A stretch of 58,221 bases of DNA from Myxococcales bacterium (GTDB lineage: Bacteria; Myxococcota; Kuafuiibacteriia; Kuafuiibacteriales; Kuafuiibacteriaceae), in NCBI GenBank assembly GCA_019634385.1, contig JAHQVK010000023.1:1-58221 (forward strand), written 5' to 3'. Under the pieces are notes generated by a model. That model ran no database searches and was not told the origin of the DNA. It saw only the letters and a program-made list of their open reading frames with translations. Shown piece after piece: positions 360-41,815 of this stretch. Position 1 is the stretch's first letter. The number at the start of each line of letters is the position of its first letter. The position numbers and the translations under genes were made by a program.

Positions 360-1502
360 CTAGTCCAAAATGTCTCTCAACAATGAGGCACGCAGGGAAG
401 ACACCTGTTCGCGTACTTCGTAGGGGGCATCCATGGTCTCTTGCTCAATGCCAGAGAACATTTGATAAGCCTCATCCACCATTGTTGGCGGCACATCTCT
501 GGTGGGCAAAGTAGCTCGAGCGCGAGCCAGACTAATGCGAAACCGCAAAACCTCGTGAGCCCAATTGGGCGCATCTTTGCCACAAGCCGCCAACTTCTCC
601 GGAGCACTCATCTCATGGTGCAAGTACTCAAACCATTCCGGCATCACATCTACGCTCATCGCCGATTCTTCATCGATCAATCTCATAGATGGTGCCGATA
701 AGTCATCATCGCCACTGAGGGTCATGAAAGACTCGATCTCCTCTGCCGCCCCACAAGCAACGCCAGGCTCTCGATCTACTCCTTGCGCATCCCCATCGAT
801 CACCCGTCGCGGGAGGGGCACAGATAAACACCAATCCCCAATGAAACTGGGATCATCAACCTTCGTCGGCAGAAACTCTTCAACAAGGTTAGCTAAGGTC
901 GCTCGCAGACTCTCACCTAAGTCAGTGAAGGACAATCCGGCCTGACGTCCCTCTTCCGACTCAAAAACTCGGACGACCCTGGCGAGCAGATACACCGGAT
1001 AATCAGGCAGCTCAAGGCAGAGCTCAGCCCGGGTACCGGGAGCAAGAGCCGGAAAATGGTTTACCGCCATCCCCGAAACACTAAGGTTGATGGTTTCCAA
1101 GTGAAACTGTTCACCGTGGACTCCAATGGTTACTGGAAGACAGATGGGTGCCCGAGGATACCGCACAAAGAGCAGCCCGGTACTGTTGGCCAAAAACCGC
1201 ATCACCGACTCGACGTCGGATGAACCGTCGCTCCACAGCAAGACCGGAACTTTTTCCGTCGCTTGCAAAAATCTCACATCCGTCAAAAACGGTTGATAAT
1301 GACTGGATACAATGCAAGCGTCTATGGTGTAGACCTTAAGTATTTCGAGGGTATCATCTAGACTTGCGCTCCAGATCACATCGATCTCACCGCGCAAGAG
1401 AAGTTCATCTCGCGCCGGACCTGGGTCCCCCAAAACTAAGGCTGTTGCCGCTTTCTTACTAGCCAATATGCAACTCCTTCGCCTGCAGGAATGAATCGAC
1501 AT
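360..1502 (-). CDS. PilZ-domain protein with degenerate receiver-like N-terminus
   Basis: A probable c-di-GMP-responsive cytosolic regulator of about 380 residues. The N-terminal 100 residues have the alternating beta/alpha pattern of a response-regulator receiver, without a clear phospho-acceptor Asp pocket. A PilZ domain follows at about 112-205, with an RYPR (RxxxR-like) motif near 114-117 and NLSVSG (the D/NxSxxG motif) near 139-144. These are the two motifs that bind c-di-GMP in the family. The C-terminal 150 residues are acidic and not recognised. The start chosen is the ATG at 1502; an in-frame GTG at 1544 would add 14 residues. It is divergent from cyaY. The stop codon TAG is part of a CTAG that borders a family B-like element. 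Confidence 0.75.
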   Translation of the reverse strand: MSIHSCRRRSCILASKKAATALVLGDPGPARDELLLRGEIDVIWSASLDDTLEILKVYTIDACIVSSHYQPFLTDVRFLQATEKVPVLLWSDGSSDVESVMRFLANSTGLLFVRYPRAPICLPVTIGVHGEQFHLETINLSVSGMAVNHFPALAPGTRAELCLELPDYPVYLLARVVRVFESEEGRQAGLSFTDLGESLRATLANLVEEFLPTKVDDPSFIGDWCLSVPLPRRVIDGDAQGVDREPGVACGAAEEIESFMTLSGDDDLSAPSMRLIDEESAMSVDVMPEWFEYLHHEMSAPEKLAACGKDAPNWAHEVLRFRISLARARATLPTRDVPPTMVDEAYQMFSGIEQETMDAPYEVREQVSSLRASLLRDILD

Positions 1503-1579
1503 CACCCCTGCAATCTTGAGGCGGTAGGCACGACACAGATCCACGACGTCGCGCTTCGATGCGGTATAAAGAGAGAGGA

Positions 1580-1906
1580 ATGACTAACAACCTCAGCGAA
1601 TCTGCGTTTTGCTTGCTCGCCGAAGAGACACTCGAAAAGCTCATGGAAGTCCTCAGCGATCTTGAAGACGAAGGCCTCGAGGCAGACCTCGAAAGCGGTG
1701 TGTTAACCCTCAAGTTCGACGATGGAGCTCGGTACGTCATCAATAGCCACCGCGCAGCACTCCAAATTTGGATGGCAGCCGACACAACTGCCTGGCATTT
1801 TAGTTGGGTCAACAATAGCTGGACCGCGCAAAAAACAGGCGAAGAACTGTGGGAAACGGTTAAGCATCGGGTCGGAGCAAAACTCGGCCGCCAACTGGAA
1901 CTCTAA
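1580..1906 (+). CDS. cyaY: Iron-sulfur cluster assembly protein CyaY (frataxin)
   Basis: A frataxin-family protein of 108 residues, close to the roughly 106 usual for bacterial CyaY. These proteins bind iron at an acidic helix and modulate Fe-S cluster assembly on IscS in the cytosol. Seen here are the acidic first helix (LEKLMEVLSDLEDEGLEADL), the strand motif SGVLTLKF, and the C-terminal block with HFSW and TGEELWETV. The start at 1580 follows a purine-rich GAGAGAGGA; an earlier ATG at 1559 would add seven residues. No isc or suf genes are nearby. It lies divergently beside the PilZ gene and 92 bp before the kinase. Confidence 0.85.
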   Translation: MTNNLSESAFCLLAEETLEKLMEVLSDLEDEGLEADLESGVLTLKFDDGARYVINSHRAALQIWMAADTTAWHFSWVNNSWTAQKTGEELWETVKHRVGAKLGRQLEL

Positions 1907-1998
1907 GTCGGACGCAAACCTTTTCCGTCACGCATATTAACTACCTAGCTCTCCAAAGCTTCTCGACCCCAGCCGAAACCACAGTATTCTATTCATCG

Positions 1999-4128
1999 GT
2001 GAGTTTGGCTTCGAGAGGTTCAGTGCAAAAAGGTCGTATTCTCGCCGGCAAATTTCGGCTTGATCGGCTACTTGCCACCGGCGCCATGGGTGAAGTCTGG
2101 CGAGCCCGTCACCTCGGGCTCGATAAAGATGTTGCCGTAAAAATCCTCAGAACCGACCGCTCACCGGACGACAGCACCACCGACCGCTTCATCCAAGAAG
2201 CACGAACTGCTAGTCGCCTAGAGCATACCAACTCTGTCTCAGTATTAGATTTTGGCCGCGACCCCTCCGGACCGCTCTACTTAGCGATGGAGCTACTTGA
2301 GGGAAACAATCTCTGTGAGGTGCTCCAGCAGCGAGGCCATCTGCCTCTCGATGAAGTCTGCCCACTTATGAGCCAAATCCTGGCTGGACTCGCCGCCGCG
2401 CACAGTGCTCATGTTCTCCATCGGGATATTAAACCCTCGAACATCATGCTGCTAGACCGGGTAGATGACGACGGGCAAGCATACCAACTTGTAAAAGTCT
2501 GTGACTTTGGTCTCGCCAAGTTCACCCACCAAACCGAGTCTTTTAGAGGAAAAGAGCAACTGATTGTCGGTACACCCTTATACATGTCCCCAGAGCAAGC
2601 GGTGGGTGAACAAGTAGATGAAAGGTCTGATGTGTACGCCTGCGGGGTTGTCTTCTTTGAGATGCTAACCGGACGCCCACCTTTTGAGGCGGAGCGCGCA
2701 GTCACCGTTCTCATGAAACACTGCGCATCACCTGTACCTAACCCATCTAATATTATTAGCCATTTACCAGCAGAAGTAGATGCCATTGCCCAAAAAACCA
2801 TGGCAAAAGACCCCGCACAGAGATTTCAAACCGCTCGAGAGTTCCGCTCGGCCGTAATAGAACTCATGCGACTCTCCTCTCGCACGAGGCCCCCGCCCCC
2901 GGAGGTTCGTCCTACTTCATATTTTCTCCGCCCTCCGACCCAATTCACGCGAGTTACTGAGCCCGAAAGTTCGCCAACCACCACACTTCAACCTCAAGTA
3001 TCCACTTGTACCCTTCTATTCGAACCTCCTATAGAATCCAACCACCTACACCATAGCCACCAAGAGCAACCCTCACCGCCCCTGCAGACAAGTAACCCAC
3101 AACGGGTATCATCCAGAATTCGAAGCAGTGATGCTCATTTTCTGTGGGAACGGTATGCATTGTCTCCGCATCGAAGTCCCCCAACTCAAGGTTTTTGGCT
3201 CCAAGATGCTAAACATCACCGAGTTGGACCTTTAACCTTTGACGAACTTGCTCTCGCCCTCCGATTGGAAGCCCTCGAGGGAACCTACGGTAAAAACCAC
3301 GTGGCCACTGACCCACAACCGCACGTCTGGCGACCAGCTAGCACGTTTTTACGAACGGTAGATGCGCTTGGAGTTTCAAGGATATCACCACCTCGTCCGA
3401 CACGCCAAGAGGCCTCCGGCCGAATTAACTCCACAACTATCCCTACACTTTTTGCCTTAGCTACCCGCACTAGGATGAATGGGCGACTTATTTGTATATC
3501 CCATAATTCAGCCAAGACAGTATTCTTCGAAATCCACCTATGGGATGGTCAACCTACACTCGTCGACACCAACGAGTTAAGCCTACAAACCCCCTCCGTA
3601 CTCATTGAGCGAAATGTTATCCATGAACACGACCTTCCCTATCTTGTTCATGATGCATGGCAAGCAGGGAACCACCTGAACACCATCGCTGACAGCATGA
3701 AACGATTAGCCGACATGGATCTGAATAGTCACTATGGTGGCGTCATGCGGTCGCGGCTAAGAAAAATGCTCCAACTCACGGAGGGAACCTGGATAGTCGA
3801 TAAAGGTTATAGCCCGGAAAAGCTTCGGCCGTTCTCAAACAACCTCCTCGCCCTGCTCCCACGGATAGCCCGCGAATCCGTGCCTGCTACAACTGTGCAG
3901 ACAACATTGAAACCTTATATGAACCAAGCTTTGATTACTCACCCCGGCACCTTATCTTCTTTGGAAGAGCTTGGTTTCACCTCTAACGAGTGGACAATTG
4001 CTAAAGAAATTCTAGCCTCGTCCGATTTAGCCTCCGCTCTCCCCTTACAAACAGATCTCCGAAACACGTATGCCACTATCGCCTATCTCTTAATCTCCAC
4101 CGCTTCCATATATGGGCAACAAATATAG
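1999..4128 (+). CDS. Cytosolic Ser/Thr protein kinase with GYF-like and extra C-terminal domains
   Basis: A 709-residue Hanks-type kinase starting at GTG. The kinase domain (about 18-290) carries the glycine loop GAMGEV (28-33), catalytic Lys48, HRDIKPSN (141-148) and DFG (169-171), so it should be active. A proline-rich linker follows (297-395), then a GYF_2-like module near 398-430 (FWLQ...GPLTFDEL). A C-terminal region of about 250 residues resembles DUF4388/PATAN-type modules common in myxobacterial regulators; this last point is a weak resemblance. No transmembrane segment is visible, unlike the PknB type with PASTA domains. It converges on the VWA gene across two stacked mobile elements. 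The substrate is unknown. Confidence 0.85.
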   Translation: MSLASRGSVQKGRILAGKFRLDRLLATGAMGEVWRARHLGLDKDVAVKILRTDRSPDDSTTDRFIQEARTASRLEHTNSVSVLDFGRDPSGPLYLAMELLEGNNLCEVLQQRGHLPLDEVCPLMSQILAGLAAAHSAHVLHRDIKPSNIMLLDRVDDDGQAYQLVKVCDFGLAKFTHQTESFRGKEQLIVGTPLYMSPEQAVGEQVDERSDVYACGVVFFEMLTGRPPFEAERAVTVLMKHCASPVPNPSNIISHLPAEVDAIAQKTMAKDPAQRFQTAREFRSAVIELMRLSSRTRPPPPEVRPTSYFLRPPTQFTRVTEPESSPTTTLQPQVSTCTLLFEPPIESNHLHHSHQEQPSPPLQTSNPQRVSSRIRSSDAHFLWERYALSPHRSPPTQGFWLQDAKHHRVGPLTFDELALALRLEALEGTYGKNHVATDPQPHVWRPASTFLRTVDALGVSRISPPRPTRQEASGRINSTTIPTLFALATRTRMNGRLICISHNSAKTVFFEIHLWDGQPTLVDTNELSLQTPSVLIERNVIHEHDLPYLVHDAWQAGNHLNTIADSMKRLADMDLNSHYGGVMRSRLRKMLQLTEGTWIVDKGYSPEKLRPFSNNLLALLPRIARESVPATTVQTTLKPYMNQALITHPGTLSSLEELGFTSNEWTIAKEILASSDLASALPLQTDLRNTYATIAYLLISTASIYGQQI

Positions 4129-4147
4129 CTATCCAGCCACCCCCTAG

Positions 4148-4320
4148 CAGCCTCTTGATCTAGCCCTGCATGCATCTGTCGGCCGGTCTTTCCGTGAAAC
4201 GTCCTGACCACGAAAAGTCTCTCCTCGGTCACGTACCGCCAGGTACGCTCGCCTCGTCGTCAAAGCGTTTCACGAAAAGCCTGTCTCGACAGCTACACAC
4301 ATGGCCAAATCAGCCGGCTG
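4148..4320 (-). repeat. Family A element, copy 2, complete (173 bp)
   Basis: A complete copy in reverse orientation, flanked exactly by CTAG at 4144-4147 and CTAG at 4321-4324. Its terminal inverted repeats are CAGCCTCTTGATCTAGCCC on the left and, in reverse, CAGCCGGCTGATTTGGCC on the right. The inner inverted repeat (TTTCCGTGAAACGT / CGTTTCACGAAAAG) and the central GTACC/GGTAC hairpin are present. Length is identical to the copy at 51393-51565. It carries no coding potential of its own. Confidence 0.85.
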
Positions 4321-4324
4321 CTAG

Positions 4325-4502
4325 GGCGTGTCTTTACCCTCCGGACCGCGTTATGACTTGTTTCCTGCGTTTGTGAACGATCGGTGGCTTTCCGACCGTT
4401 CGGGCCCTTCTGTCCGGTACATCCAGTACCCTCCCTCCGGGGCCGACCCTCACAATCGCGGGGTACGGCGTCATCTTCGCGGCCGGAAGGTAAACACATG
4501 CG
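4325..4502. repeat. Family B element (178 bp), sharing a CTAG with family A
   Basis: The element lies between CTAG at 4321-4324 (shared with the family A copy) and CTAG at 4503-4506. Its ends form an inverted repeat: GGCGTGTCTTTACCCTCCGG on the left, and in reverse CGCATGTGTTTACCTTCCGG on the right. The interior has a GGTAC-atcca-GTACC hairpin. The right-hand CTAG contains the TAG stop codon of the VWA gene on the minus strand. Confidence 0.8.
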
Positions 4503-6824
4503 CTAGAGAAGTCCCGACTGCCGCCGTCTCCACCACTCCGTTCCTGCTAAAACCAAAAGTAACAGCAAAAAAACATATGTATTCCAGATTGGTACCTGGC
4601 GACTCCGATTTACCTCAACTCGACGTTCATCCTTAAACTGTATCGAAGGCAAAGCTTCATTTATTGGAACATATTTCCCCTTCGAACCCTTTGAGAGGGC
4701 CTGAAGAATCCCTGGCCGTGGAAAGGGTAACTGAAACTCAATATCTGCGGACTCAACAATCAGTGGCTCTTTAGCTTCGCCGATGTGCCGTCCATAGGCA
4801 TCAAAGGCTTCAGCCTTAATTATGTATGTACCCGGGGAAAGGTTTGAGAATCTCTCTACAGCAGTTCCTTCCGCGCCGGTGACCAGTTCGTGTTCATCGG
4901 GTAAGTCAGTAACTCCCCCCTCCATCTCATGCTGCTGAAACGTCTTTGCGGATACTCTGACCAGACGAAGCTTAACGGTAGTGCCAACTAATGGTCGGTA
5001 ATTAGGCCCCAATACTTCCACTTCCACATGAGCGGCATCCCCCTTAGCGATGACCGAGCGGCTCACTTGAAGCCGCACGCGATCCAACTCCGGATCTTTG
5101 ATCAACCATCGGAGGGCATTCGACCAAAATCGATCAAACTCTCTGCCTGTACCTCCGTCAGAAACCGCTACAAACCTCCAAAACCACAAAGAATCTGTAG
5201 AAACCGATAGCGTTCGCCCTTTCTCTACTTCGCGCACCGCCACCACCGGCGGATTACCGGGCAACGAGGGATGAGTCAGAAGAGCCGACGCATTTGGCAT
5301 CAAACCAAGGCTTGAGTTCATGCCCTGAAGCAGTGGCAGGCGAGCAAACGCAGCATCTAGGGGCTCACCAGCCTCTGCGATACTTGTAATAGGATGAACC
5401 CGACCATCAGTAGTCAACCGCGGTCGATACGATGCAGAATCCCACAACATGGCCCCCCCCAACCGAGTTGGCAAAATATCGGCCACCGCAGTATTCGCAT
5501 ACCAACCATCCTCAAAAGATTGATCTCCACCCACCATCATAAAACCACCACCTCGGAGGACATAATCACGAATATTAGGTAGGTATCGATCCATTCGGTA
5601 CGGGCGGTACGAGAAATTTTGATAGATAACGACATCAAAAGTCTCAAGCTCCTCCGTGAACAATTCATTCACCGGAAATGGAATCAGAGCGAGCTCATCT
5701 TGAGATGCCTTCTGTAGATCGGTTGTCGAACGAAGAATAAAGAAAGATATAAGATCTACATTGGGGTTTCTCTTGAGAAGCTCTCGAAGAAAACGTTGAT
5801 CCCAAGATGGTCGACCAGCAACCTGGAGCACACGAATCCGATCGCGAATTACACGAAGGACAAAGCTTCGCTGATTGTTAGTTTTAACGGTCTCTCCGGC
5901 CTGTATGGGAACCGAAACTTGATAAACCTGTTTACCAATAGCTCGAGGCTTAAACGAAAAGCCTACTTGAGCCTGCCCTTTATCAAAACGCGCCGACTTG
6001 GTTTGGAGGACATGCCCATCTTGTTTGAGGGCAACACTTACCTCCCTCACTTGAAGACCCCTCGCTTCAAGGTCAACGTCTATCTGAACATTATTATGCA
6101 CAAAGGCAAAGTCTCTCGAAGGGATTGGCCGGATAGCCACATCAGGCGCCGTCGCATCTTCATCAAACCCCACAGTATATATTGGTATACCTAGATTCGC
6201 CGACTCGCGAAGCGCAGTCGCATCGGTTAACCCTTCTGTATCCGCACCATCGGAGTACAAAATTATTGCCCCCAGCTCCCTTCCAGCCCCTTGCCACGAT
6301 ACTTCCCTCAGCGCACGAACAAGATCTGAACTCACACCTTCAGGTAGCAACTCGGTGGGCATCTCGTCGATAGGGCGTGAACGTGAGTCAAACGCATGCC
6401 ATTCGATGGACGCCTTTTGAGATAGTTCCCTAAAGGTGGTTTGATTCTGTTGGAGGTGCTGAAGAACTAGCTCTTCTCGTGTACCTCGGTCAGAGGCCAA
6501 ATCCATAGATCGACTGACATCTAATAAAACCGCGATGCGAGACCGGACTCGTGATATCGCACGCAACTCAATCGTGGGCTGCAGCAACAAAAACAGGATC
6601 AAGACCCCAAGACTCAGGCGCCAACTCATCAGCTCCACACACCGTCGCCGCGAGAGACGCCAAACCCCCACTAGCGATAAACCTAGGGCCACCACCAACA
6701 GGGCCCCCATGAGATACATAACCCCGGGAGCCCAATCAGCACCACTGATCAACCGCCAATCATTGTAAGCCCCTGGTGCTGCGTCTGGGGCTAGCCATTC
6801 CACCATTTGATCGACGCTCATCAA
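4503..6824 (-). CDS. Membrane VWA-domain protein with glutamine-amidotransferase-like domain
   Basis: A 773-residue inner-membrane protein of the kind found beside DUF4159 proteins and in MoxR/DUF58 loci. Two N-terminal membrane helices (about 33-54 and 64-86) precede a von Willebrand A domain with an intact MIDAS motif, D102-x-S104-x-S106. A Rossmann-like 'class I glutamine amidotransferase-like' region follows (about 335-475, with FDVVIYQNF and GGGFMMVGGDQSF). A beta-rich region comes next, and a C-terminal helix (about 745-768) is followed by WWRRRQ. The GAT-like region has no evident catalytic Cys triad. It overlaps the DUF4159 gene by 4 bp (ATGA), so the two are probably translationally coupled. 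The stop TAG abuts a family B element. Confidence 0.8.
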   Translation of the reverse strand: MMSVDQMVEWLAPDAAPGAYNDWRLISGADWAPGVMYLMGALLVVALGLSLVGVWRLSRRRCVELMSWRLSLGVLILFLLLQPTIELRAISRVRSRIAVLLDVSRSMDLASDRGTREELVLQHLQQNQTTFRELSQKASIEWHAFDSRSRPIDEMPTELLPEGVSSDLVRALREVSWQGAGRELGAIILYSDGADTEGLTDATALRESANLGIPIYTVGFDEDATAPDVAIRPIPSRDFAFVHNNVQIDVDLEARGLQVREVSVALKQDGHVLQTKSARFDKGQAQVGFSFKPRAIGKQVYQVSVPIQAGETVKTNNQRSFVLRVIRDRIRVLQVAGRPSWDQRFLRELLKRNPNVDLISFFILRSTTDLQKASQDELALIPFPVNELFTEELETFDVVIYQNFSYRPYRMDRYLPNIRDYVLRGGGFMMVGGDQSFEDGWYANTAVADILPTRLGGAMLWDSASYRPRLTTDGRVHPITSIAEAGEPLDAAFARLPLLQGMNSSLGLMPNASALLTHPSLPGNPPVVAVREVEKGRTLSVSTDSLWFWRFVAVSDGGTGREFDRFWSNALRWLIKDPELDRVRLQVSRSVIAKGDAAHVEVEVLGPNYRPLVGTTVKLRLVRVSAKTFQQHEMEGGVTDLPDEHELVTGAEGTAVERFSNLSPGTYIIKAEAFDAYGRHIGEAKEPLIVESADIEFQLPFPRPGILQALSKGSKGKYVPINEALPSIQFKDERRVEVNRSRQVPIWNTYVFLLLLLVLAGTEWWRRRQSGLL

Positions 6825-7621
6825 CGCCTCCGATCAAGAATGAATGGCGCATGAACCAGATCGTCTTTGTAATCGAGACAGAGTACGTACATGACAATGT
6901 TGATGCCCAAGCGAAAGGCCATTTCCCGCTGACGCTCCCCTCCCGGGCTCACGTCGTGGGTCCAGCGCCCAAAAGGATCCCTGGACCAGGCACCGGCTAA
7001 ATCGTTTTGGCAATACACAACCGCGTAACGATTCTCGAGAGTTAGGCCCTCCATATACGGAACTCTCAACACCCGGCCGGCCTGATGCGTCACCAGGTAG
7101 AAGGTCTTATACAGAACATGTTCACTGGGAATGCGGTCGAGACGTCGGCGCGGAAACAAGTTTCCCAGCAACCGACGCACCGACGCGTCAAAAGCTCCCC
7201 CTGGCTCCGCGTCTGCCGAGTCCACCAAAAGACTACCCCCATAGGTTAAAAAGCGGCGCAGCGCACGAATGCTATCCTCCGAAAACGGGGGGATCTCGCC
7301 AGAGCCACCAAGATATACCAGTGGATATCGAAAGAGCTCAGGGGAGGCCGGATCAACCAGTACTTTCTCAAGGTTCACCTTGATAGAGGTCCGCTGCCGA
7401 ACTTCCCAAGCCAAACGACGTAGGGCATCTGGCCGAGCATCCCAGTCCCCCTCCGTTCGAAGCTGAGCAACCTGGAGGTCGGAGGCGCTCGGTTTGAACC
7501 CCATCAACAACGACCCAAAACCGCCCAAGGTCACCGCCTGGCGAAGAAGCGCCCGTCGGTGCGAAGTTCGGTGGCCGACGTAGCTCACGGAAAATCCGTT
7601 TGGTGGGGCGTCGACTATCAT
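6821..7621 (-). CDS. DUF4159 protein with Tat-like signal
   Basis: A 266-residue protein with a DUF4159 domain: YPLVYLGGSGEIPPFS near 97-112, LRRFLTYGGSLLVDSAD near 120-136, and RIPSEHVLYKTFY and NDLAGAW further on. These proteins have a glutamine-amidotransferase-like fold and usually sit with MoxR, DUF58 and VWA genes. The N-terminal HRRALLRQAVTLGGFGSLL looks like a twin-arginine signal, so export or membrane anchoring is likely. Only the VWA partner is present here; no MoxR ATPase or DUF58 gene is adjacent. The biochemical role of the family is unknown. Confidence 0.75.
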   Translation of the reverse strand: MIVDAPPNGFSVSYVGHRTSHRRALLRQAVTLGGFGSLLMGFKPSASDLQVAQLRTEGDWDARPDALRRLAWEVRQRTSIKVNLEKVLVDPASPELFRYPLVYLGGSGEIPPFSEDSIRALRRFLTYGGSLLVDSADAEPGGAFDASVRRLLGNLFPRRRLDRIPSEHVLYKTFYLVTHQAGRVLRVPYMEGLTLENRYAVVYCQNDLAGAWSRDPFGRWTHDVSPGGERQREMAFRLGINIVMYVLCLDYKDDLVHAPFILDRRR

Positions 7622-9171: not shown

Positions 9172-9192
9172 AATCTCTGAAACCTCTCCCGT

Positions 9193-19800: not shown

Positions 19801-19906
19801 CAAATCAACCCCGAGCAGGCCCCCGAACGCTTGATCAGGGAGCGCACAGAAAGCTTGCTCAATGGAGCGCACAGAAACTTTTGGGGTCAACGTGCGAGCA
19901 GGCTGC

Positions 19907-20022
19907 TACAGCAGAAATTACTTGGGTTGAACCCAAGTGCCTGCCTCTACGCTGGGCTATGGCCCCGTTTCGCGACCCCTTGTTGATTCTGTTAGAATCA
20001 ATTCAAGTGGTCTTTGCTGTAT
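19907..20022 (-). repeat. Family D TA-bounded triple-hairpin element, copy 1 (overlaps murB 3' end)
   Basis: A 116-bp element, reverse orientation, running from TACAGCAGAAAT to TCTTTGCTGTA. It contains the palindromes ACTTGGGTTgAACCCAAGT, GCTGGGC/GGCCCCG-like, and GATTCT/AGAATC extended to AATTCAAG. The terminal sequences are imperfect inverted repeats. It overlaps the end of murB: the reading ACA GCA AAG ACC ACT TGA inside the element gives the last five residues TAKTT and the stop codon. Confidence 0.85.
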
Positions 20023-21169: not shown

Positions 21170-21306
21170 GGCGTGTCTTTACCATCGGACCGCGTTCTGA
21201 CTTGTTTCCTGCGTTTGTGAGGGGCCCAAAAGGGTGGCAGAGCCACCGACCCCGCACAAACGCAGGCTACGGTGTCATCTCCACAGCCAGAGATTACAGA
21301 CCCGCC
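21170..21306. repeat. Family B element (137 bp), internally shortened
   Basis: It starts GGCGTGTCTTTACCATCGGACCG, nearly identical to the left end of the copy at 4325, preceded by TCAG (a possible decayed CTAG at 21166-21169). It ends at CTAG 21307-21310, which it shares with a family C element. The right end (in reverse GGCGGGTCTGTAATCTC) is more diverged. It includes CCTGCGTTTGTG and its reverse CACAAACGCAGG as a hairpin. Confidence 0.75.
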
Positions 21307-21310: not shown

Positions 21311-21481
21311 CAGGCCATCGGAGAAGTGGGATGGGTGATCCGCGAAGTATCTTTTCCGTGGAACGCTCCGGATGAAGAGGGCGCATACCGGGCGTATGCA
21401 ACCGATGAAAGGCGAAGCCGGTCCTGACGTCCCACGGAAAAAGGACCCGCGAAGCGCCTAACTCACTTTTCCGATGGCCTG
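21311..21481. repeat. Family C element, copy 1 (171 bp)
   Basis: It is flanked by CTAG at 21307-21310 and 21482-21485. Its terminal inverted repeats are CAGGCCATCGGAGAAGTG and, in reverse at the right, CAGGCCATCGGAAAAGTG. The inner arms TCTTTTCCGTGGAACG and CGTCCCACGGAAAAAGGA, with a GCATACcgggCGTATGC centre, give a long fold-back. The CTAG on the right is the TAG stop codon of the NamZ-like gene. Confidence 0.88.
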
Positions 21482-22675
21482 CTAGTACATAAGCACCGGC
21501 TGTCGTTCCTCGACAAACGCCGCCTCATCTTCTCGAAAAGTTTCGAGAATATCCGCTACTGAGGCCCCCCCCTCCAGCAGAGATCTCGGCTGGTCTGACC
21601 CAAACAACAAATCAATAGCTAATCGGTCCGAAACAAACTCGTATGCCTCCACGCGCCAGCCAAAATCCTGCGGAGCCAAACGGCGAGCCGCATGAAGCAA
21701 GGCCAAACTAACCCTTAGGGAACGAATCGTCCATCGATCCACAACATGGATTTGCACCCCACCACAGTATCGGTTGGCATGTTTTTGGAACATCGGCTTC
21801 AGCAATAGTGGCCGGAGCCGAACGCCATCGCCCACATCTTGCGAGGCAGTTTCTGCCCAGGCCCGTCCGTCCAACCATGGTGCGCCACACTGCTCAAACG
21901 GACGAGTAGTACCCCGCCCTTCTGATAAGTTTGTGCCTTCCAACAAACACTGTCCAGGGTATACCCAAGCGGCGTCATTGGTTGGCATATTGGGTGAGGG
22001 CATGATCCATGGCAGGCCGGTTGCCTCAAAATCCATAGTTCTTGACCACCCCTTCATCGGGACCAACTCAAGTTCTACATCTATAGCTTCTTTCTTTCGA
22101 ATCCATGCCGCGTATTCCGCCAGGGTCAAGCTGTGTCGTATAGGCATATTAAACGCCCCCACAAAGGACACAAACTGCGGATACAAACCAGGACCCTCAA
22201 CATCCTCATCCCGACCTCCAAGCGGATTTGGCCGATCGAGAACCAGCACCCGGGTCCCCGTCCGGGCTGCGGTTTGCATTACATAACCCATGGAAGCGGC
22301 ATAGGTGTAATAGCGAGCACCAATATCCTGAAGATCAACAACCACCACGTCCAACCCAGAAAACATTTCCGGACTAGGTCGCAAGGATGCCTCATCAGAG
22401 CCATACAGCGAGTAGACTTTCACCCCGCTGGGCTCCCCTGAGCTCTGCTCCGTAACCGTCTCCATATCTTGCGCAGCACCTTCAAGGCCATGCTCGGGAC
22501 CAAAAAGTGCCTGAAGATCAACACCCGCCTCGACCATCAGTGGGAGGATGTGCCGTAATTGCCCATCCACCGATGCGGGATGGGCAAGGAGTCCCACCCG
22601 CTGACCCTTGAGAGAAGCGAATCCATCCGACACCATGAGATCCAAGCCGGTGAGCACTTTCATTCCGCTCATCAT
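21482..22675 (-). CDS. DUF1343 / exo-beta-N-acetylmuramidase NamZ-like protein
   Basis: A 397-residue member of the DUF1343 family, whose characterised member NamZ removes MurNAc from the non-reducing end of peptidoglycan fragments. The family signatures are present: GQRVGLLAHPASVD, LFGPEHGLEGAAQDME, VYSLYGS, VVVDLQDIGARYYTYAASMGYVMQ and LVLDRPNPLGG, then PSPNMP and LLEGTNLSEGRGTTRPFEQ. No signal peptide is evident, so a cytosolic muropeptide-recycling role is likelier than a secreted one. It is divergent from folD (137 bp) and near murB. Its last residues QPVLMY end at a TAG within a CTAG element border. Confidence 0.87.
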   Translation of the reverse strand: MMSGMKVLTGLDLMVSDGFASLKGQRVGLLAHPASVDGQLRHILPLMVEAGVDLQALFGPEHGLEGAAQDMETVTEQSSGEPSGVKVYSLYGSDEASLRPSPEMFSGLDVVVVDLQDIGARYYTYAASMGYVMQTAARTGTRVLVLDRPNPLGGRDEDVEGPGLYPQFVSFVGAFNMPIRHSLTLAEYAAWIRKKEAIDVELELVPMKGWSRTMDFEATGLPWIMPSPNMPTNDAAWVYPGQCLLEGTNLSEGRGTTRPFEQCGAPWLDGRAWAETASQDVGDGVRLRPLLLKPMFQKHANRYCGGVQIHVVDRWTIRSLRVSLALLHAARRLAPQDFGWRVEAYEFVSDRLAIDLLFGSDQPRSLLEGGASVADILETFREDEAAFVEERQPVLMY

Positions 22676-25386: not shown

Positions 25387-25500
25387 TACAGCAAAGACCA
25401 CTTGAATTGATTCTGTAAGAATCAATTCAAGGTCGCGCAGCGGGGCTCAGCCCCGCGTAGCAGCAGGAACTTGGGTTCAACCCAAGTGATTTCTGCTGTA
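25387..25500 (+). repeat. Family D element, copy 2 (114 bp)
   Basis: It runs from TACAGCAAAGACCACTTG to TTTCTGCTGTA between the convergent 3' ends of gcvH and the amylosucrase gene. Three hairpins follow one another: TTGAATTGATTCT-gta-AGAATCAATTCAA, CGGGGC-tca-GCCCCG and ACTTGGGTT-c-AACCCAAGT. No poly-T tract follows any stem. Confidence 0.9.
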
Positions 25501-32879: not shown

Positions 32880-32892
32880 GGGAGATGTATTA

Positions 32893-33786: not shown

Positions 33787-33798
33787 CCGGTCGATTAT

Positions 33799-35103
33799 TC
33801 AGCGATCACATTCACCAGAAATGATATTCAGCGACTCGAAAATCGACGCCACGTTAGTCAATGTTTGACCACGAAGTAGCTGAGTGAGTGAACTAGCTAT
33901 AGCGAAACATGGTGCGCGGACATGCAGCTTCCACGGCTTACCACCGCCGGTAGACAACACATAGAATCCTAATTCCCCATTGGCCCCCTCCTGGTAAGCA
34001 TAGGCTTCGCCCGAAGGAACTTGAATTCCATCAACAACAATTTTAAAGTGGTTGATCATCTCCCCTAGGCCCTTGGGTATACCGTGGGCTTTTACTCTGG
34101 GTAAGCGCAACCGAAAATCATCAACTATCAGCTTCGGCTCTGTATCTTTGACCTGGTGTAAACACTGCTCTATGATCCTTCGCGACTGTCGGATTTCTTC
34201 CAAGCGAATAAGGTAACGATCATAGTTGTCACCATTTGTTCCGACAGGAATATCAAAACTAATGCGATCATAAACATCATAAGGAGCAGTACGACGAACA
34301 TCATATGGGACACCAGTGCTCCGAAGACATGGACCGGTCCAACCCCAAGAGATAGCGTCCGTTGAGGGCATCACCCCGATGCCCACCATACGCTGGAGAA
34401 AAAAGCGGTTGGAATTTAGCATTTTCTCAATTCCTCGGATAGTATCCTCCATTTGAGTAAAACGGGCGGACATATGCTCTTCGAATCCGGCCGGCAAGTC
34501 ATAGTTCACACCGCCAACACGAGCATACCCAACCGTGAGTCGAGCACCCGCCAATTCCTCAGCTGCACCCCAAAATAACTCTCGCGCCTGAACGAGGTGC
34601 TGGACCTGGCTACTCGAACCAATCACCATCAAACAGCTGGTTAGACAACTAAGGTGGTCTGTTATTCTTGATATTTCAGCAGCAATAGTCCGGCAATACT
34701 TGGCACGTTCAGGAATTTCGACATCACAGAGTTTCTCAACGGCTGATGCATAGCTGAAATTATTAATAAAAGGGGACGCAAAATTTAGCCGGTCCGTATA
34801 CGGGAAGATCATCGTCCAGGTGGACGCCTCAAAACTCTTTTCGACACCCCGGTGGGTAAAGCCCGCTTGAACATCAACCTGTTCAATACGGTCATTCTCA
34901 ACCAACACTCGCAGTCGAATAGCTCCATGGCCATTTGTAGCTGGATGGGATGGTGCCATGTCGAGCACGACTTGCTGAGAGTCTTCTTTAGGCTTAAGCA
35001 CCGGCCCCAGCATCTGTATGCTGGGCGAAGCCCCTCCCGTCGCTAACCGTACGCAGCGATCGAGCCGACGTCGGTATCTGCGCCCCTCCCAAGTACTATC
35101 CAT
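33799..35103 (-). CDS. nuoD: NADH-quinone oxidoreductase subunit D (49 kDa type)
   Basis: A 434-residue peripheral subunit of complex I forming part of the quinone pocket. Motifs include SHPATNGHGAIRL, FTHRGVEKSFE, PYTDRLNFASP, AEISRITDHLSCL and the C-terminal SLNIISGECDR, which match NuoD. The common PATHG motif reads PATNG here, so the conserved quinone-site His is replaced by Asn. No other nuo gene is adjacent. The start at 35103 is preferred because AGGA lies just upstream; it overlaps ybeY by 8 bp. Confidence 0.9.
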   Translation of the reverse strand: MDSTWEGRRYRRRLDRCVRLATGGASPSIQMLGPVLKPKEDSQQVVLDMAPSHPATNGHGAIRLRVLVENDRIEQVDVQAGFTHRGVEKSFEASTWTMIFPYTDRLNFASPFINNFSYASAVEKLCDVEIPERAKYCRTIAAEISRITDHLSCLTSCLMVIGSSSQVQHLVQARELFWGAAEELAGARLTVGYARVGGVNYDLPAGFEEHMSARFTQMEDTIRGIEKMLNSNRFFLQRMVGIGVMPSTDAISWGWTGPCLRSTGVPYDVRRTAPYDVYDRISFDIPVGTNGDNYDRYLIRLEEIRQSRRIIEQCLHQVKDTEPKLIVDDFRLRLPRVKAHGIPKGLGEMINHFKIVVDGIQVPSGEAYAYQEGANGELGFYVLSTGGGKPWKLHVRAPCFAIASSLTQLLRGQTLTNVASIFESLNIISGECDR

Positions 35104-35584
35104 TATCTGTCCTATGTCGTTCACCGCGCACCTGAGCCAACGCCCGTCGGATGGTCCGGGTTCGGTTCCGCATCTGCCGTGCCTCTTCAGGCTCAGCATG
35201 ATCATAACCTAAGAGGTGGAGGGTGCCATGAACCGCGAGAAGCTCAAGCTCTGCATCAAGAGTTACTTTCCGGGAGATAGCCTGTTTCTTTGCGTACTCG
35301 ACGCTAATGACAACATCCCCAAGACTTGTGTCCTGGGGGCCGACATCTCCCTCATCCAGAGCAAAAGCAAGCACGTCCGTCGGTTGATCCACACCCCGAA
35401 ACTCGTGGTTTAGCTGATGAATCTCCTCGTTATCAGTCAGAAGTACAGACACTTCCCGGCCAGATATTTTTTCGAGCTCCAGAGTCTTTTCCACCGCTTT
35501 TTGCACCCATCGAGCACTTCCACCGCTCGCACCATCTTTTCGGCGGCGCAAAAGCTCCACTATGCATCGATCGTCAGGCATCAT
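35096..35584 (-). CDS. ybeY: Endoribonuclease / rRNA maturation factor YbeY
   Basis: A 162-residue metal-dependent RNase for 16S rRNA 3' maturation and ribosome quality control. The zinc motif HGTLHLLGYDH (H-x3-H-x5-H) is complete, and VLLTDNEEIHQLNHEFRGVDQPTDVLAFAL is the family N-terminal block. It starts 5 bp after the PgpH-like gene and overlaps nuoD by 8 bp. The pairing of ybeY with a 7TM-HD gene is common in bacteria. Confidence 0.93.
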   Translation of the reverse strand: MMPDDRCIVELLRRRKDGASGGSARWVQKAVEKTLELEKISGREVSVLLTDNEEIHQLNHEFRGVDQPTDVLAFALDEGDVGPQDTSLGDVVISVEYAKKQAISRKVTLDAELELLAVHGTLHLLGYDHAEPEEARQMRNRTRTIRRALAQVRGERHRTDNG

Positions 35585-35589
35585 TTTTC

Positions 35590-37794
35590 TTAGCTTAACG
35601 GATTACTCGGACTCGTTTCTCGGGTACGAGAAATCGTGGATGTGGCGAGGGGAAAAGAGCCCCCTCCAACATCCGAGTCGCCCCCCACAAAGCGCGCTTG
35701 TAGTGCTTCAGTAAACGCCCGGCTGACCGCTGCCAGCTCTCGTAACTCCAGTGCGGCTTCGTCCAGCACCCGACTCGAAACTGCGGAGCGAATCTCTGCC
35801 CGAACGACCGTTTCTAGGCTCGACACTTCTCGAAACTGACCCTCTCGACCTGCTAATGCGGACTCCACCTGATCCGCAAGTGCAACTAGCGCCGAAGTTT
35901 TACTTCGAGGTTTAGGATGCTTTTCCCCACCGGATACGTTTCCATTCTCATGGGGCTGTTCTGCTAGGATCTGAGCCAAAGCCGCCGGAAAACGATGCTC
36001 CACCGCAAGCGTCATCGCTGTCTTTCGACGAACTTCCGGATCGCGCTGACCTCGGATACGTCCAACATCATGCAAGTACCCTCCGACCCGCGCGAGCAGT
36101 CGATCCGAACCAATAGCTCGGGCCCCAGCCTCCGCCAACCCCCCAACGTTTAAGCTATGATGATAGGTCCCTGGCACATCAACCAGCAGTCCCCGCATCA
36201 GTGGGTGCTCTGCATCGGCAAAGGCCGCTAAACCCACCGGCGTTGTGTACCCGAACAAAGCCTCTACCGCAGGAAGTACAGCACGAGCCAGCAGCCCCGC
36301 AAGTACTCCGGACATCAAGCCGAGACCGGCATGTACAACGACAACAGACAGTTGAAACTTAGCATTCAGGAGTGCCGTACCCACGACCGCAGCTCCTTGA
36401 GCAAAACCAGCACCTAGTCCGGCACTGAGGAAGGTCCGCTTCGCTCCCAACTCAACGGAGGCCGCTGCGAGTGACCCCATCATCCCAAATGCCGCGTAAT
36501 CGAGGTCTCCATCCATCATCCATCCCGCCATCAGTCCAACCACCGGAGTGGTAGCCACTGCCGCAAGAGGGCTAGCCGCTAACCTCACGACAATCGTCGT
36601 GACGGACAGAGGCAGTAACAGGCGATAACTCGCTACAGGAAGCCCGGATATCGGCTTAATTTCCGCAAGCCATGCAACAACCTTAAATCCCCCCCAACCT
36701 ATCAGCAGATGCACAACAAAGACTGTGGCTAGAAAAATAAGGTCCCTCTGGCGGGGACGACGATGGCGATACGCAAGACTCGCGGCTCGATACGCCAACC
36801 ACGCAAGCATCGCTCCTAGTAGCGCACTCCCCAAGATCGATCGCAATCGAGCCTGCGGAGCCTCCAATTTTTTCAGAGCATCCAAAAGAAGCAAATCTCG
36901 TTTTGTGATTCGCTCCCCGGCTCGAAGAATCTTCTCACCTCGTTGTACGGGGATCACGGTGGGCTTGACGGACAGCCACGCTAGCTGGCGCCGACGTAGG
37001 GTTTCTTGGGCATTCTGCACAAGGTTGGGCGCAACCAGAGCCCGAACGATCGTCGAAACACCAACCTTCAGTCGCGGAGATAAATGCGCGAGCCGTTGAA
37101 CCGCTAATTCCCCAACTCTTCGGTGCGCTGCGAGGGGCGCAATTAGGGCCTCAGCCTCTTCGCTCCCCACCAAAACCAACCGTTCGGAAGTTACCCGGCC
37201 ATTAGCATCTACGGCCCGCACAGTCATAGCCCGACGAAGCGGGACCCGGGAAGGATCAGAGACGATCTGTCGCTGATACGTAGCCTCCACAAGGAGAGAA
37301 ACTGCCTCCATCACCACTTCTCGACGCTCTGGCGCCACAAGAAGGAGTCCGGTCTTGCGATCTAGCTCCACCCCCAACAATGCCCGTAGGACACTGAGTT
37401 GATCTCTATGTGGGGCAGCATCCGCTGCCTCCATCGCCTCTGTAAATCGCATTTTGGCCATGCGAGGAGATTCGAGGAGATGATCAAAAATCGGATGCAC
37501 CGCTGCCCGAGCCCGTTCCCTGGTCTCTTTGGTAAGATCTGGATCTGGGGTAGAAAAAGCCCTCGGACTCGTCACCGTTCTCGGTGCTAATTCAGCCTCA
37601 AGTAAGGTCGGCAGACCCACGAGGCCATCATCACCCCGTGGCAACAGCAACAGGGCAGAAGCAATACTTATCACCACAAGAAGGCCAATAGCCTCCAGGT
37701 CTCGAGCGATCCGCACCGGCTTGCGCCATACTCCCACCGAGACGACGTTGCCTGAGCTACAGCGGAGCAGCAAGACATGTTCCCCTAGCGTCAC
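35590..37794 (-). CDS. 7TM-HD membrane phosphohydrolase (PgpH/YqfF family)
   Basis: A 734-residue protein of the family whose Listeria member PgpH degrades c-di-AMP. Order: one N-terminal helix (about 33-52), a large extracytoplasmic region with the ERITKRDLL-type 7TMR-HDED pattern (to about 330), a bundle of about seven membrane helices (335-520) and a cytoplasmic HD domain. The HD residues are in GTYHHSLNVGGLAEAG and YLHDVGRIRG. The motif HDIGK reads HDVGR here, a conservative change. Its start is only 26 bp from the divergent speA start, so a slightly later start is possible. It is transcribed with ybeY and nuoD. Confidence 0.85.
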   Translation of the reverse strand: MTLGEHVLLLRCSSGNVVSVGVWRKPVRIARDLEAIGLLVVISIASALLLLPRGDDGLVGLPTLLEAELAPRTVTSPRAFSTPDPDLTKETRERARAAVHPIFDHLLESPRMAKMRFTEAMEAADAAPHRDQLSVLRALLGVELDRKTGLLLVAPERREVVMEAVSLLVEATYQRQIVSDPSRVPLRRAMTVRAVDANGRVTSERLVLVGSEEAEALIAPLAAHRRVGELAVQRLAHLSPRLKVGVSTIVRALVAPNLVQNAQETLRRRQLAWLSVKPTVIPVQRGEKILRAGERITKRDLLLLDALKKLEAPQARLRSILGSALLGAMLAWLAYRAASLAYRHRRPRQRDLIFLATVFVVHLLIGWGGFKVVAWLAEIKPISGLPVASYRLLLPLSVTTIVVRLAASPLAAVATTPVVGLMAGWMMDGDLDYAAFGMMGSLAAASVELGAKRTFLSAGLGAGFAQGAAVVGTALLNAKFQLSVVVVHAGLGLMSGVLAGLLARAVLPAVEALFGYTTPVGLAAFADAEHPLMRGLLVDVPGTYHHSLNVGGLAEAGARAIGSDRLLARVGGYLHDVGRIRGQRDPEVRRKTAMTLAVEHRFPAALAQILAEQPHENGNVSGGEKHPKPRSKTSALVALADQVESALAGREGQFREVSSLETVVRAEIRSAVSSRVLDEAALELRELAAVSRAFTEALQARFVGGDSDVGGGSFPLATSTISRTRETSPSNPLS

Positions 37795-37820
37795 CCTCTA
37801 GAGCGGTGTAACGGCTGAGC

Positions 37821-39839
37821 ATGTCGAGCTGGAGCACACGAGATTCCGCAGAGCTTTATGGCATTGAGGGCTGGAGCAATGGTTACTTCGGCATCAACGA
37901 AGACGGCAACGTTGAGCTAAGTCAGACCGCAACCGGTGCAAACCCTCTGGATCTAAAACGGGTGGTTGATGACCTAGTTCGCCGCGGACTCCCCCTGCCC
38001 TTGTTGATAAGATTTACCGATATCCTTCGTCGTCAGGTTCAAGCCATCCACGGAGCTTTTAGTACCAAGATAGATGAATACGGATACAAGGGCATTTATC
38101 GGCCGATCATGCCCATTAAGGTGAACCAACAACGTCATGTGGTTGAAGAACTTTTGGACGTTGGGGCGTCGGTCGGCCTAGGATTAGAGGCGGGCTCCAA
38201 GCCGGAGCTCCTCGTCGCTTTGGCCCTTATGGGTGGCCGCAAAGACGGTCTTGTTGTGTGCAATGGGTACAAAGACCAAGCATATATCGAGACCGCCCTC
38301 CTTGCTCAACGGGTGGGGGTCACTTCGCTCATCATCGTTGACCGTTTCTCCGAACTCAAAATGATATTGGAAGCCGCGGAGCACACTGGCCTTCCTCCGA
38401 ATATTGGTCTGCGCGCAAAGCTAGCCACGAGAGGTAGCGGACGCTGGGCCGAATCTGGGGGAGACCGTTCGAAATTTGGGCTGTCCGCCGAAGAGTTAGT
38501 TCTAGCTACGGAAGTACTGGAAGAGCGAGGGATGCTCGATCGACTAACGTGCCTACACTATCACATTGGCTCACAGGTTACCGCCATTCGTGCGGTGAAG
38601 GAGGCCTTGTCCGAAGCGGTTCGTATATTTGCCGACCTATACCAAATGGGAGCAAAGCTTGAGTACCTCGATATTGGTGGTGGCTTGGCTGTCGATTACG
38701 ATGGCTCGAAGACTAATTTTCACGCCTCCAGGAACTATAGTTTGGAGGAATATGCCTCCGATGTGGTGTGGCAGGTATCAAGTACGCTTAACGAGCTCGA
38801 TATTCCCCATCCGCGCATCTTATCCGAATCAGGGCGGGCGTTGGTCGCCCACCACTCAGTACTAGTCTTTAATGTCCTCGAGACGAACAGACCCGAAGAA
38901 ATCCAGCCCATACCGGAACGAGACCCCACCCAAGATGAGCACGCAATCATTGAGGATCTTCGTGAGATCACCCAAATAGTCTCTCGCAAGAACTATACGG
39001 AGGCCTATCATGACGCAATATCGCTCAAGGAGGATGCTCTCTCACTTTTTAGGCATGGTATTCTCGATATCAAGGATCGCGCGAAAGCGGAGAGACTCTA
39101 CTGGGAAATATGCCGTAAAATCTGGAAAATCGTGCGGGATATGGAATATGTCCCCGAAGACTTGGAGCCTCTAGAGAGGTTGGTAGCGGAGACTTACTAT
39201 TGCAATTTCAGTCTATTTCAGAGTGTACCCGACTCTTGGGCAGTTAAGGCGCTCTTCCCCGTCATGCCTATCCATCGGCTCAAACACAGACCCACCCGCC
39301 GCGGAGTGCTCGCCGACCTGACATGCGATAGTGACGGGAAAATCGACCAATTTATTGGCCTCCACGACGTAAAGGAAACACTGGAACTGCATCCATTTAA
39401 GAAGGGTGAACCATATTTTCTAGCGGTATTTCTCGTCGGCGCATATCAAGAAATTCTTGGGGATCTGCATAATCTGTTTGGCGATGTGAATGCCGTGCAC
39501 ATCGAGCACGACCCAATCAACGGCTACTCCGTACGACATGTCGTTGAAGGCGACACTGTTCGTGATGTCCTTGGCTACGTCAGCTACGATCAGCGCACCC
39601 TTCTTGAGCGACTGCGACGGGCCATCGAACATGCATTATCGGAGGGCAAAATCACGTTCGAACAAAGTGCCGCATTGGTAAGGCACTTCGAGAGAGGACT
39701 CTCGGGTTACACCTACCTCGATAGCCAAGCCGATGTGGCCGCTTTGCTGCGCTCTCTTGCACCAAAATCGAACTCTGGACCGGCAGAAACCCGAAATCAT
39801 TCGGCCAACACTGAGGTTTACGAGGTTGTCCCGAAATAA
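37821..39839 (+). CDS. speA: Biosynthetic arginine decarboxylase
   Basis: A 672-residue PLP enzyme of alanine-racemase fold that makes agmatine for polyamines, in the usual size range of SpeA. Motifs include MPIKVNQQRHVVEELL with the PLP Lys, LGLEAGSKPELL, LHYHIGSQ, YLDIGGGLAVDYDGS and the C-terminal ESGRALVAHHS region and CNFSLFQSVPDSWA. It is divergent from the PgpH-like gene. No agmatinase or agmatine deiminase gene is in the window. Translation of pcnB begins after its end. Confidence 0.94.
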   Translation: MSSWSTRDSAELYGIEGWSNGYFGINEDGNVELSQTATGANPLDLKRVVDDLVRRGLPLPLLIRFTDILRRQVQAIHGAFSTKIDEYGYKGIYRPIMPIKVNQQRHVVEELLDVGASVGLGLEAGSKPELLVALALMGGRKDGLVVCNGYKDQAYIETALLAQRVGVTSLIIVDRFSELKMILEAAEHTGLPPNIGLRAKLATRGSGRWAESGGDRSKFGLSAEELVLATEVLEERGMLDRLTCLHYHIGSQVTAIRAVKEALSEAVRIFADLYQMGAKLEYLDIGGGLAVDYDGSKTNFHASRNYSLEEYASDVVWQVSSTLNELDIPHPRILSESGRALVAHHSVLVFNVLETNRPEEIQPIPERDPTQDEHAIIEDLREITQIVSRKNYTEAYHDAISLKEDALSLFRHGILDIKDRAKAERLYWEICRKIWKIVRDMEYVPEDLEPLERLVAETYYCNFSLFQSVPDSWAVKALFPVMPIHRLKHRPTRRGVLADLTCDSDGKIDQFIGLHDVKETLELHPFKKGEPYFLAVFLVGAYQEILGDLHNLFGDVNAVHIEHDPINGYSVRHVVEGDTVRDVLGYVSYDQRTLLERLRRAIEHALSEGKITFEQSAALVRHFERGLSGYTYLDSQADVAALLRSLAPKSNSGPAETRNHSANTEVYEVVPK

Positions 39840-39960
39840 CCTTTGCCTACGGACCCTGCCCTGCTATACGCGCCGAGCGTCTGCAGTGGGTTCAGGAGGT
39901 CACGAAGACTCAGTTGAGCATGCAGCGCCTCCCTCAGACGCGGCAGTTACGGACGTCTCG

Positions 39961-41640
39961 ATGGATTGGCTGCTGGATTCGCTGCGACTGGTTCGCGAGA
40001 TTAACGACTGGGCCAACGCCCGGAGAAGGCAGGACCCTTCCGCTCGCCGAACGAAGGAAGCCCTCGCTCACGCGACTCGCGAATTAGAGCTCATCGTGGA
40101 GTCCTACGGACTCAGCCTTCCCGAGGTCGAAACCGTTCCGACCCACAGTCGGCTGATCGACCCGCCCGGTCCCGAGCAAGATTCATCGAACGAACGAGAT
40201 TCGACCCACTCTAACGGGCACATCGATCCCGGACAAACTCAGCTCGCTCCATCCACTGACGGAGAGCACGTTCCCATCATCACGCCGGAAGAGGTGGGTA
40301 GTGCCAGTCCACGGATTCGTATCGAAGACATCGACCATCAAGCTGTCCTCGCCATAAAACGTCTTCGACGATACGGGTACAAAGGATATCTTGTAGGCGG
40401 ATGCGTGCGAGACCTACTTCTCGGCATTACACCTAAGGACTTCGACATCGTCACTGATGCCCGGCCGGAGGAAGTGAAGTCCGTTTTCCGGAATTCCCGT
40501 GTGATCGGCCGGCGATTTAGACTGGTGCACCTGTATTATCGAGGAGGCAAAGTCTTGGAGGTCGCAACCTTCCGTGCGTCTATACCCAACGACGACGAAG
40601 ACGATGGCAGCGGCGACCTATTGATACGCAGAGACAATGTATTTGGCTCCGAGCAGGAAGACGCGAAGCGCCGCGACTTCACCATCAACGCACTTTTTTA
40701 CGACCCCGAAAATGGCCGAATCATTGACCATGTTGGGGGGCTCCACGACGTAGACGCCCGAATTGTGAGGATGATCGGAGATCCTAATATCCGTCTTCGC
40801 GAGGATCCAGTCCGCATCATTCGCGCCATTCGGTTTCGAGCTAAGGCAAATCTGACCCTCGAAAACGAACTCAACCATTGCCTAAGTAAGTACGTGGAGG
40901 AGCTCCTTCGATGCCCGCCCGCTCGGCTTCTTGAGGAGACCTTAAAGCTGCTGCGTATGGGCCACGCAGAGGCATCATTCAATGAAATGCTTACTCACGG
41001 CGTTTTGGGGGCACTGCTCCCTGAAATACAGGCATTTATCGATGGTCGCTTCGGCTTATTAGCAGGCACATCGATCATGGAACACCGTGATCCCATTGCA
41101 GATATTCGAGCTCACCTCCGTGGACTCGATCAGGTCATCGCTCGATCCCCCGTTTCAGATGACGTAGTTCTGGGTGCGCTCATGTATCCACTGGCTGACG
41201 CCATTATGAGCCTCGCTGATACCAAAGGACGCGATCGTAATCGTTGTCTGACGGAGCTCCTGAGCGAAATTGGCATACGGATCCAGATCACCCGCAAACT
41301 CTCTGAACAGCTGAGACAAAGTTTTAGTGCTCAGCGATACTTCCACTCTGAAGGCCCCAATGGTCATCGACGACGTCGTCGCATCTCCCCTTCCAGCTTG
41401 ATGCGTAAGGTTTTTTTCCCCGCCGCTCTACGCCTCTTCGAGATCCACCAGCGAGCTATTGAAGCGCCCCTTGATGATGTTGACATGTGGGAAGCTCGAG
41501 CCCGCGATGAGGGGATATCACTCAACGGCCAATTGTTCTCCAACACGGAGCCAAGACTGAATGGTACAAGTACGCGACCCCGTAGACGACGCAGACGAGG
41601 TCATCGCCGCCCCAACGGTACACCAGGGCCAGAGCACTAG
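39961..41640 (+). CDS. pcnB: Poly(A) polymerase PcnB with extended N- and basic C-termini
   Basis: A 559-residue nucleotidyltransferase that adds 3' poly(A) tails to RNA. The head domain has GYLVGGCVRDLLLGITPKDFDIVTDARPEEV with the catalytic Asp pair, and RNSRVIGRRFRLVHLYY, which separates PcnB from CCA-adding enzymes. Before it lies a roughly 120-residue low-complexity extension; the C-terminus RPRRRRRRGHRR is strongly basic and may bind RNA. The start is uncertain: ATG at 39961 is used, with an in-frame GTG at 39886 as alternative; an AGGAGGT at 39894 is not well placed for either. The stop TAG is in the CTAG bordering a family C element. Confidence 0.9.
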   Translation: MDWLLDSLRLVREINDWANARRRQDPSARRTKEALAHATRELELIVESYGLSLPEVETVPTHSRLIDPPGPEQDSSNERDSTHSNGHIDPGQTQLAPSTDGEHVPIITPEEVGSASPRIRIEDIDHQAVLAIKRLRRYGYKGYLVGGCVRDLLLGITPKDFDIVTDARPEEVKSVFRNSRVIGRRFRLVHLYYRGGKVLEVATFRASIPNDDEDDGSGDLLIRRDNVFGSEQEDAKRRDFTINALFYDPENGRIIDHVGGLHDVDARIVRMIGDPNIRLREDPVRIIRAIRFRAKANLTLENELNHCLSKYVEELLRCPPARLLEETLKLLRMGHAEASFNEMLTHGVLGALLPEIQAFIDGRFGLLAGTSIMEHRDPIADIRAHLRGLDQVIARSPVSDDVVLGALMYPLADAIMSLADTKGRDRNRCLTELLSEIGIRIQITRKLSEQLRQSFSAQRYFHSEGPNGHRRRRRISPSSLMRKVFFPAALRLFEIHQRAIEAPLDDVDMWEARARDEGISLNGQLFSNTEPRLNGTSTRPRRRRRRGHRRPNGTPGPEH

Positions 41641-41811
41641 CAGGCCATCGGAAAAGTGGGATGGGTGATCCGCGAAGGTTCTTTTCCGTGCAACGCTCCG
41701 GATGAAGAGGGCGCATACCGGGCGTGGGCAACCGATGAAAGGCGAAGCCGGTCCGGACGTTCCACGGAAAAAAGACCCGCGAAGCGCCTAACTCACTTTT
41801 CCGATCGCCTG
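41641..41811. repeat. Family C element, copy 2 (171 bp)
   Basis: It is flanked by CTAG at 41637-41640 (the pcnB stop codon) and 41812-41815. Its sequence is nearly identical to the copy at 21311-21481, with the same length and ends. Its fold-back structure is the same. Confidence 0.9.
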
Positions 41812-41815
41812 CTAG

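Follow-up and report, generated by a model that had tools for sequence, protein, structure and literature searches.

Stop codons in the myxococcal genome studied here are occupied by three families of short repeats (A, B, and C) in proportion to the target sites that the stops offer. We regard A, B, and C, with a probability of roughly 0.88, as non-autonomous DNA transposons (MITEs) that are moved in trans and directed to the motif YTAR, that are purged from genes, and that occupy stops as supply dictates. In the mechanism we propose, the elements would be mobilized in trans by DDE transposases. Insertion of A into YTAR duplicates 4 bp of the target, B goes into the TA of this motif and contributes the inner bases from its own terminal G and C, and C sits in CTAG, with CTAG on both sides. 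After duplication at a YTAR stop, the copy of the motif that faces the gene still terminates it, and copies landing in genes would be removed by selection. The survivors are found between genes, with a preference for convergent pairs, and at stops in proportion to the available sites, stop codons as such going unrecognized.

The stretch of DNA analyzed (the window) is contig C201, of 58,221 bp, from a 5.39-Mb draft MAG of 257 contigs (G000). The census covered about 2.24 Mb of this genome (41%), including 11 short loci that were selected for a C copy; copies were located with profiles made from copies of the elements, and a hexamer scorer written in-house served as the gene caller. The sample contained 261 A, 261 B, and 137 C copies (659 in total), which make up 4.0% of the sequence, and 407 C termini were found in the whole genome. 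All three families are short (A, 173 bp; B, 180 to 182 bp; C, 171 bp, within the 100 to 400 bp typical of MITEs) and without coding content, and they carry terminal inverted repeats at both ends (CAGCCTGTTGATCTAG in A, GGGCGTGTCTTTAAAC in B, and CAGGCCATCGGAAAAGTG in C); for A, a target-site duplication was confirmed by empty sites. Median identity to the consensus was 0.95 for A, 0.87 for B, and 0.97 for C, and the low value for B identifies it as the oldest family. REP/RAYT palindromes (IS200/IS605-like) were ruled out, since the elements have long terminal inverted repeats and A has a 4-bp duplication. Family A was found in none of the 8 relatives searched, and the C end was absent from all others among 195 Myxococcota genomes searched; the closest genomes compared were three from the same family but other genera. 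The families are new and specific to this genome, and their kind is already known from MITEPsy1 and the YTAR target of IS5.

In the window, each of the CTAGs at 4503, 21482, and 41637 flanks a B or C element and, at the same time, contains the TAG stop of a gene. A family B element on the plus strand (4325 to 4502) has as its right flank CTAG 4503-4506, the stop of a minus-strand open reading frame (ORF; 4503 to 6806) ending in CTTCTCTAG. A family A element (4148 to 4320, plus strand, flanks CTAG/CTAG) precedes this B element, and CTAG 4321-4324 is common to both. At the second site, a degenerate B element (21170 to 21306, plus strand) abuts a C element (21311 to 21481, plus strand), and CTAG 21482-21485 on the right of the latter holds the stop of namZ (21482 to 22663, minus strand; gene end ATGTACTAG). 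At the third, pcnB (39886 to 41640, plus strand; gene end GAGCACTAG) terminates in CTAG 41637-41640, which is the left flank of a C element (41641 to 41811, plus strand). The preliminary description had listed a fourth such gene, encoding a PilZ domain (360 to 1466, minus strand; gene end TTGGACTAG), and its TAG stop does lie in a CTAG (360 to 363, minus strand). The segment beside it (142 to 359) is not recognizable as a B copy and gave no profile hit even at an E value of 100; its match to a B-type terminus is limited to the ∼20 bp at the right end (GGAGGGTCAAGACACGCC). On its other side lies a family A element that the start of the contig truncates (1 to 137, minus strand; right flank CTAG 138-141). 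The domain assignments given earlier for these genes were otherwise confirmed, except that the ORF called VWA (4503 to 6806) matched GATase1_like only.

The other elements of the window lie away from stops or are incomplete: an intergenic C element with flanks CTAG/CTGG (44243 to 44413, minus strand) and a degenerate B element (49063 to 49186, minus strand), both away from stops, as is an A element with a non-YTAR target duplication, TTGA/TTGA (51393 to 51565, minus strand), and a truncated A element (52774 to 52917, minus strand) with an uninterrupted CTAG at 52880, the point at which other A copies carry an internal C insertion. The window gave no match in Rfam. A fourth repeat family, D (about 115 to 125 bp, with ends TACAGCA...TGCTGTA), is represented by over 200 matching copies in the sample and by six in the window (19906 to 20022, 25387 to 25500, 44117 to 44230, 48666 to 48779, 50937 to 51060, and 54937 to 55051); D repeats host nested A and C insertions.

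That insertion at a CTAG stop keeps the stop and a full-length protein, as had been proposed, is borne out by NamZ. Its C-terminal domain was matched through the last profile position, and its nearest named relative, from a Myxococcota MAG (L116, 65% identity), has the same terminal Tyr, followed by a TGA stop with no element behind it.

The flanks of the elements bear on whether CTAG is a target or belongs to the element. Family A has 4-bp flanking repeats that are mostly YTAR (mostly CTAG), and matched flank pairs other than CTAG were seen in 20 of 68 cases, compared to 4.9 expected (CTAA, 7; TTAA, 6; TTAG, 3; TCAA, 2). Empty sites were found within repeats of the genome itself. Where an A element is flanked by TTCG/TTCG, the empty form of the repeat has just one TTCG; A elements were found within C copies that elsewhere show a single CTAG at that point; and several C copies share one insertion point in A, where 11 to 15 empty A copies read CTAG. 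Two C insertions were found in repeat D, at a point where nearly all empty D copies read CTTG, not CTAG. In family B, the inner flanking bases are always G and C, with variation (Y and R) confined to the outer ones; from these flank statistics, B insertion is best read as occurring at TA, in the form Y-TA-[GGGCGTG...CACGCCC]-TA-R. Of the 90 C copies in which both ends are present, 79 are bordered by CTAG left and right, which is consistent with duplication of CTAG and inseparable from a CTAG borne by the element, so that C could carry CTAG in its ends.

An alternative would be that the CTAGs are element ends rather than target duplications and that the elements themselves made the stop codons. 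The near-constant CTAG on both sides of C would fit, as would the fact that B itself supplies the G of TAG. We consider it very unlikely nonetheless, given the matched non-CTAG pairs of A (CTAA, TTAA, TTAG, TCAA, TTGA, and TTCG), their single copy in empty sites, and the end residue that NamZ shares with its element-free relative. The earlier reading of CTAG as a duplicated insertion target was upheld.

Two further patterns were noted at the flanks. The tetramer doubled as CTAGCTAG was the most overrepresented of its kind in noncoding DNA (46 copies versus 7.0 expected, 6.6-fold), with 8 copies versus 9.0 expected in coding DNA; about half of the CTAGCTAG copies adjoin B elements (for example, C13:6192 and C98:27519). 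They look like excision footprints of CTAG-flanked elements. A preference of B for CTAGCTAG was judged a less likely cause, because such a target would not give the CTAA or TTAG that is often found on the far side. In addition, 61 element pairs had exactly one 4-bp flank in common (A-B, 34; B-C, 16; A-C, 11), and none of these 61 pairs in the sample was of the A-A, B-B, or C-C type; recombination, assembly collapse, or immunity could account for them.

The motif YTAR reads the same on both strands and includes TAA or TAG on either one; a C or T in front of a TAA or TAG stop therefore suffices to make that stop a target. On contig C61, a B element lies between two convergent genes that each now end in TAG beside the element, and these genes appear to have formerly shared an overlapping TTAA stop site. 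The preliminary description had asked for the copies in the genome to be counted against the available CTAGs, with no excess at stops as the refuting outcome, and no excess was found. The 2.24 Mb contain 3,784 coding, 1,284 intergenic, and 120 stop CTAGs (73% coding; 2.2 per kb in coding and 3.0 per kb in noncoding DNA), and the assumption that CTAG is rare within coding sequence, while right for GC-rich relatives, is false for this genome. Flush with a stop were 34 of the 387 usable element blocks (8.8%; 95% confidence interval [CI], 6.2 to 12.1%), compared to 37.1 expected after adjustment for gene-orientation context. Stops make up 120 of the 1,404 element-free CTAGs that are noncoding or at stops (8.5%; P = 0.86 versus the flush share), and insertions did not exceed the share of target sites that stops provide. 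Likewise, 37 of 475 YTAR stops (7.8%) were occupied, as were 61 of 687 YTAR sites located 4 to 60 bp downstream (8.9%; P = 0.59).

These numbers tell against a true targeting strategy, in which the machinery would recognize stop codons, or terminating ribosomes or 3′ ends, besides CTAG. Such a strategy had been raised as a possibility for the window, where 3 of the 7 usable blocks abut a stop, compared to 31 of 380 elsewhere (Fisher P = 0.017), a contrast to be read with the knowledge that the observation was picked for this very pattern. Insertions also form a sharp spike exactly at stops, with 37 there versus about 1 per bp downstream. Since YTAR occurs at 29% of stops versus 1.1% of downstream positions and occupancy per site is alike (7.8% versus 8.9%), the spike is wholly explained by motif supply; genome-wide, the flush share of 8.8% matches the supply of 8.5%, and an effect of about 1.4-fold or larger is refuted in this genome (upper CI limit, 12.1% versus 8.5%). 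A third point in favor of targeting came from a GC-rich relative (G001, 71% GC), in which elements with the core of C and other ends are flush with stops in 3 or 4 of 5 copies, at the genes for a ribulose-phosphate epimerase, a hybrid histidine kinase, and an HD-domain protein, and probably at a fourth gene. In GC-rich relatives, however, CTAG is scarce outside stops. The share of stops among tolerable CTAGs was 0.09 at 40 to 50% GC, 0.30 at 50 to 58%, 0.44 at 58 to 65.5%, and 0.67 above 65.5% in a series from other loci, with small numbers and mixed taxa, and coding CTAG fell to 0.06 per kb as GC rose; a share of 0.67 leads one to expect 3 or 4 of 5. Supply fits both the genome of the window and its GC-rich relatives, and we give targeting almost no credence: the hits on stops are the product of chance and selection. 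The coding CTAG density of 2.2 per kb in the window's genome is about 10 times that of other loci with 50 to 58% GC (0.22 per kb), and CTAG is therefore not avoided there.

The elements of the GC-rich relative (L108, L110, L111, L113, and L115) match the C core at 88 to 92% identity over 49 bp and their terminal repeats are of two unrelated types, CAGGCTGCTGAAGAACTC and TCACCTGCGTCAGTGATTCC; the A core is roughly alignable with theirs. This comparison suggests that the core was conserved while the ends were exchanged. As a speculative idea to which we assign little weight, an element specific for YTAR or CTAG would in GC-rich bacteria be stop-codon specific in effect, with no dedicated recognition; this could explain the persistence of the swapped-end elements at gene 3′ ends, where the core may function.

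Not one element lay within a called gene in the 2.24-Mb sample, in which 73% of CTAGs are coding, and selection would be the probable cause of this absence. Convergent intergenic regions were overrepresented (odds ratio, 1.9; P = 2 × 10−5) and divergent ones underrepresented (0.65; P = 0.01) among the contexts of the elements, a pattern that is expected if harmful insertions are lost and that resembles that of pneumococcal repeats (PMC3049150). The excess between convergent genes would also fit a function that benefits the host at gene ends, where the elements would be kept as bidirectional terminators or mRNA-stabilizing hairpins. All three families fold into long hairpins (z of about −7.4), and in another genus, the core common to A and C is conserved between ends of other sequence. 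Hairpins nevertheless follow from long inverted repeats, and pneumococcal repeats and ordinary insertion sequence (IS) elements are equally enriched between convergent genes, for which relaxed selection has been invoked (PMC3049150). The copies are, moreover, species specific, and many are decayed (B median identity, 87%), and we hold a host role to be unlikely.

Mobilization in trans by a cut-and-paste mechanism is what we infer from sequence, and the candidate partners for B are relics of the IS5 family (NF033580). In the window's genome, these have ends GGGCCTGTCTTCAAAG beside TA, close to the GGGCGTGTCTTTAAAC of B, and they share with B GGGC-TGTCTT-AAA ends adjoining TA. One relic of 880 bp (L092) has ends GGGTCTGCCTTCAAAG and GGGCCTGTCTTCAAAG and flanks CTA/TAG, and over the first 14 positions, the ends of B agree with it at 12. 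Most of these B-like IS5 relics are decayed, and a search of the sampled DNA for long elements bounded by terminal inverted repeats and containing a transposase yielded one decayed, IS5-like element of 837 bp for B. An IS5 family copy on contig C191, in two abutting open frames, may be functional via frameshifting. For A and C, no convincing autonomous partner was found, and their terminal inverted repeats match no transposase in the searched part of the genome. IS701 (PF13546) was considered as a partner and rejected, being represented by one decayed fragment without matching ends.

Elements of this kind have been described elsewhere. In Pseudomonas syringae pv. phaseolicola, the MITEPsy1 element, which is about 100 nt long, has terminal inverted repeats, and was attributed to an IS of its own genome, targets CTAG or YTAA, with a duplication of 4 nt; its terminal repeats differ from those of A, B, and C, it is shorter and has fewer copies, and stop codons are not a topic in the available portion of that account (PMC3189936). 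IS5 has the same YTAR target (PMC10359306), whereas A, B, and C encode nothing. RUP, BOX, and SPRITE of Streptococcus pneumoniae are likewise high-copy hairpin repeats, probably moved in trans and enriched between convergent genes, and in 36 cases, a BOX copy encodes the stop of the gene before it (PMC3049150). BOX, of unrelated sequence, provides this stop from within the element, whereas the stop lies in the target of A, B, and C. The MITEs of Haloquadratum walsbyi are also nested in mobile elements in a genome missing a functional transposase, but this organism is an archaeon that strongly avoids CTAG (PMC3119063), which is common in the genome studied here.

A target motif that holds a stop codon on both strands turns part of the stops of a genome into safe landing sites. 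The frequency of elements at stops then follows the sites on offer, 8.5% in this genome and 0.67 of tolerable CTAGs above 65.5% GC. A sharp pileup of insertions exactly at stops thus need not mean targeting, and motif supply suffices to account for it here.
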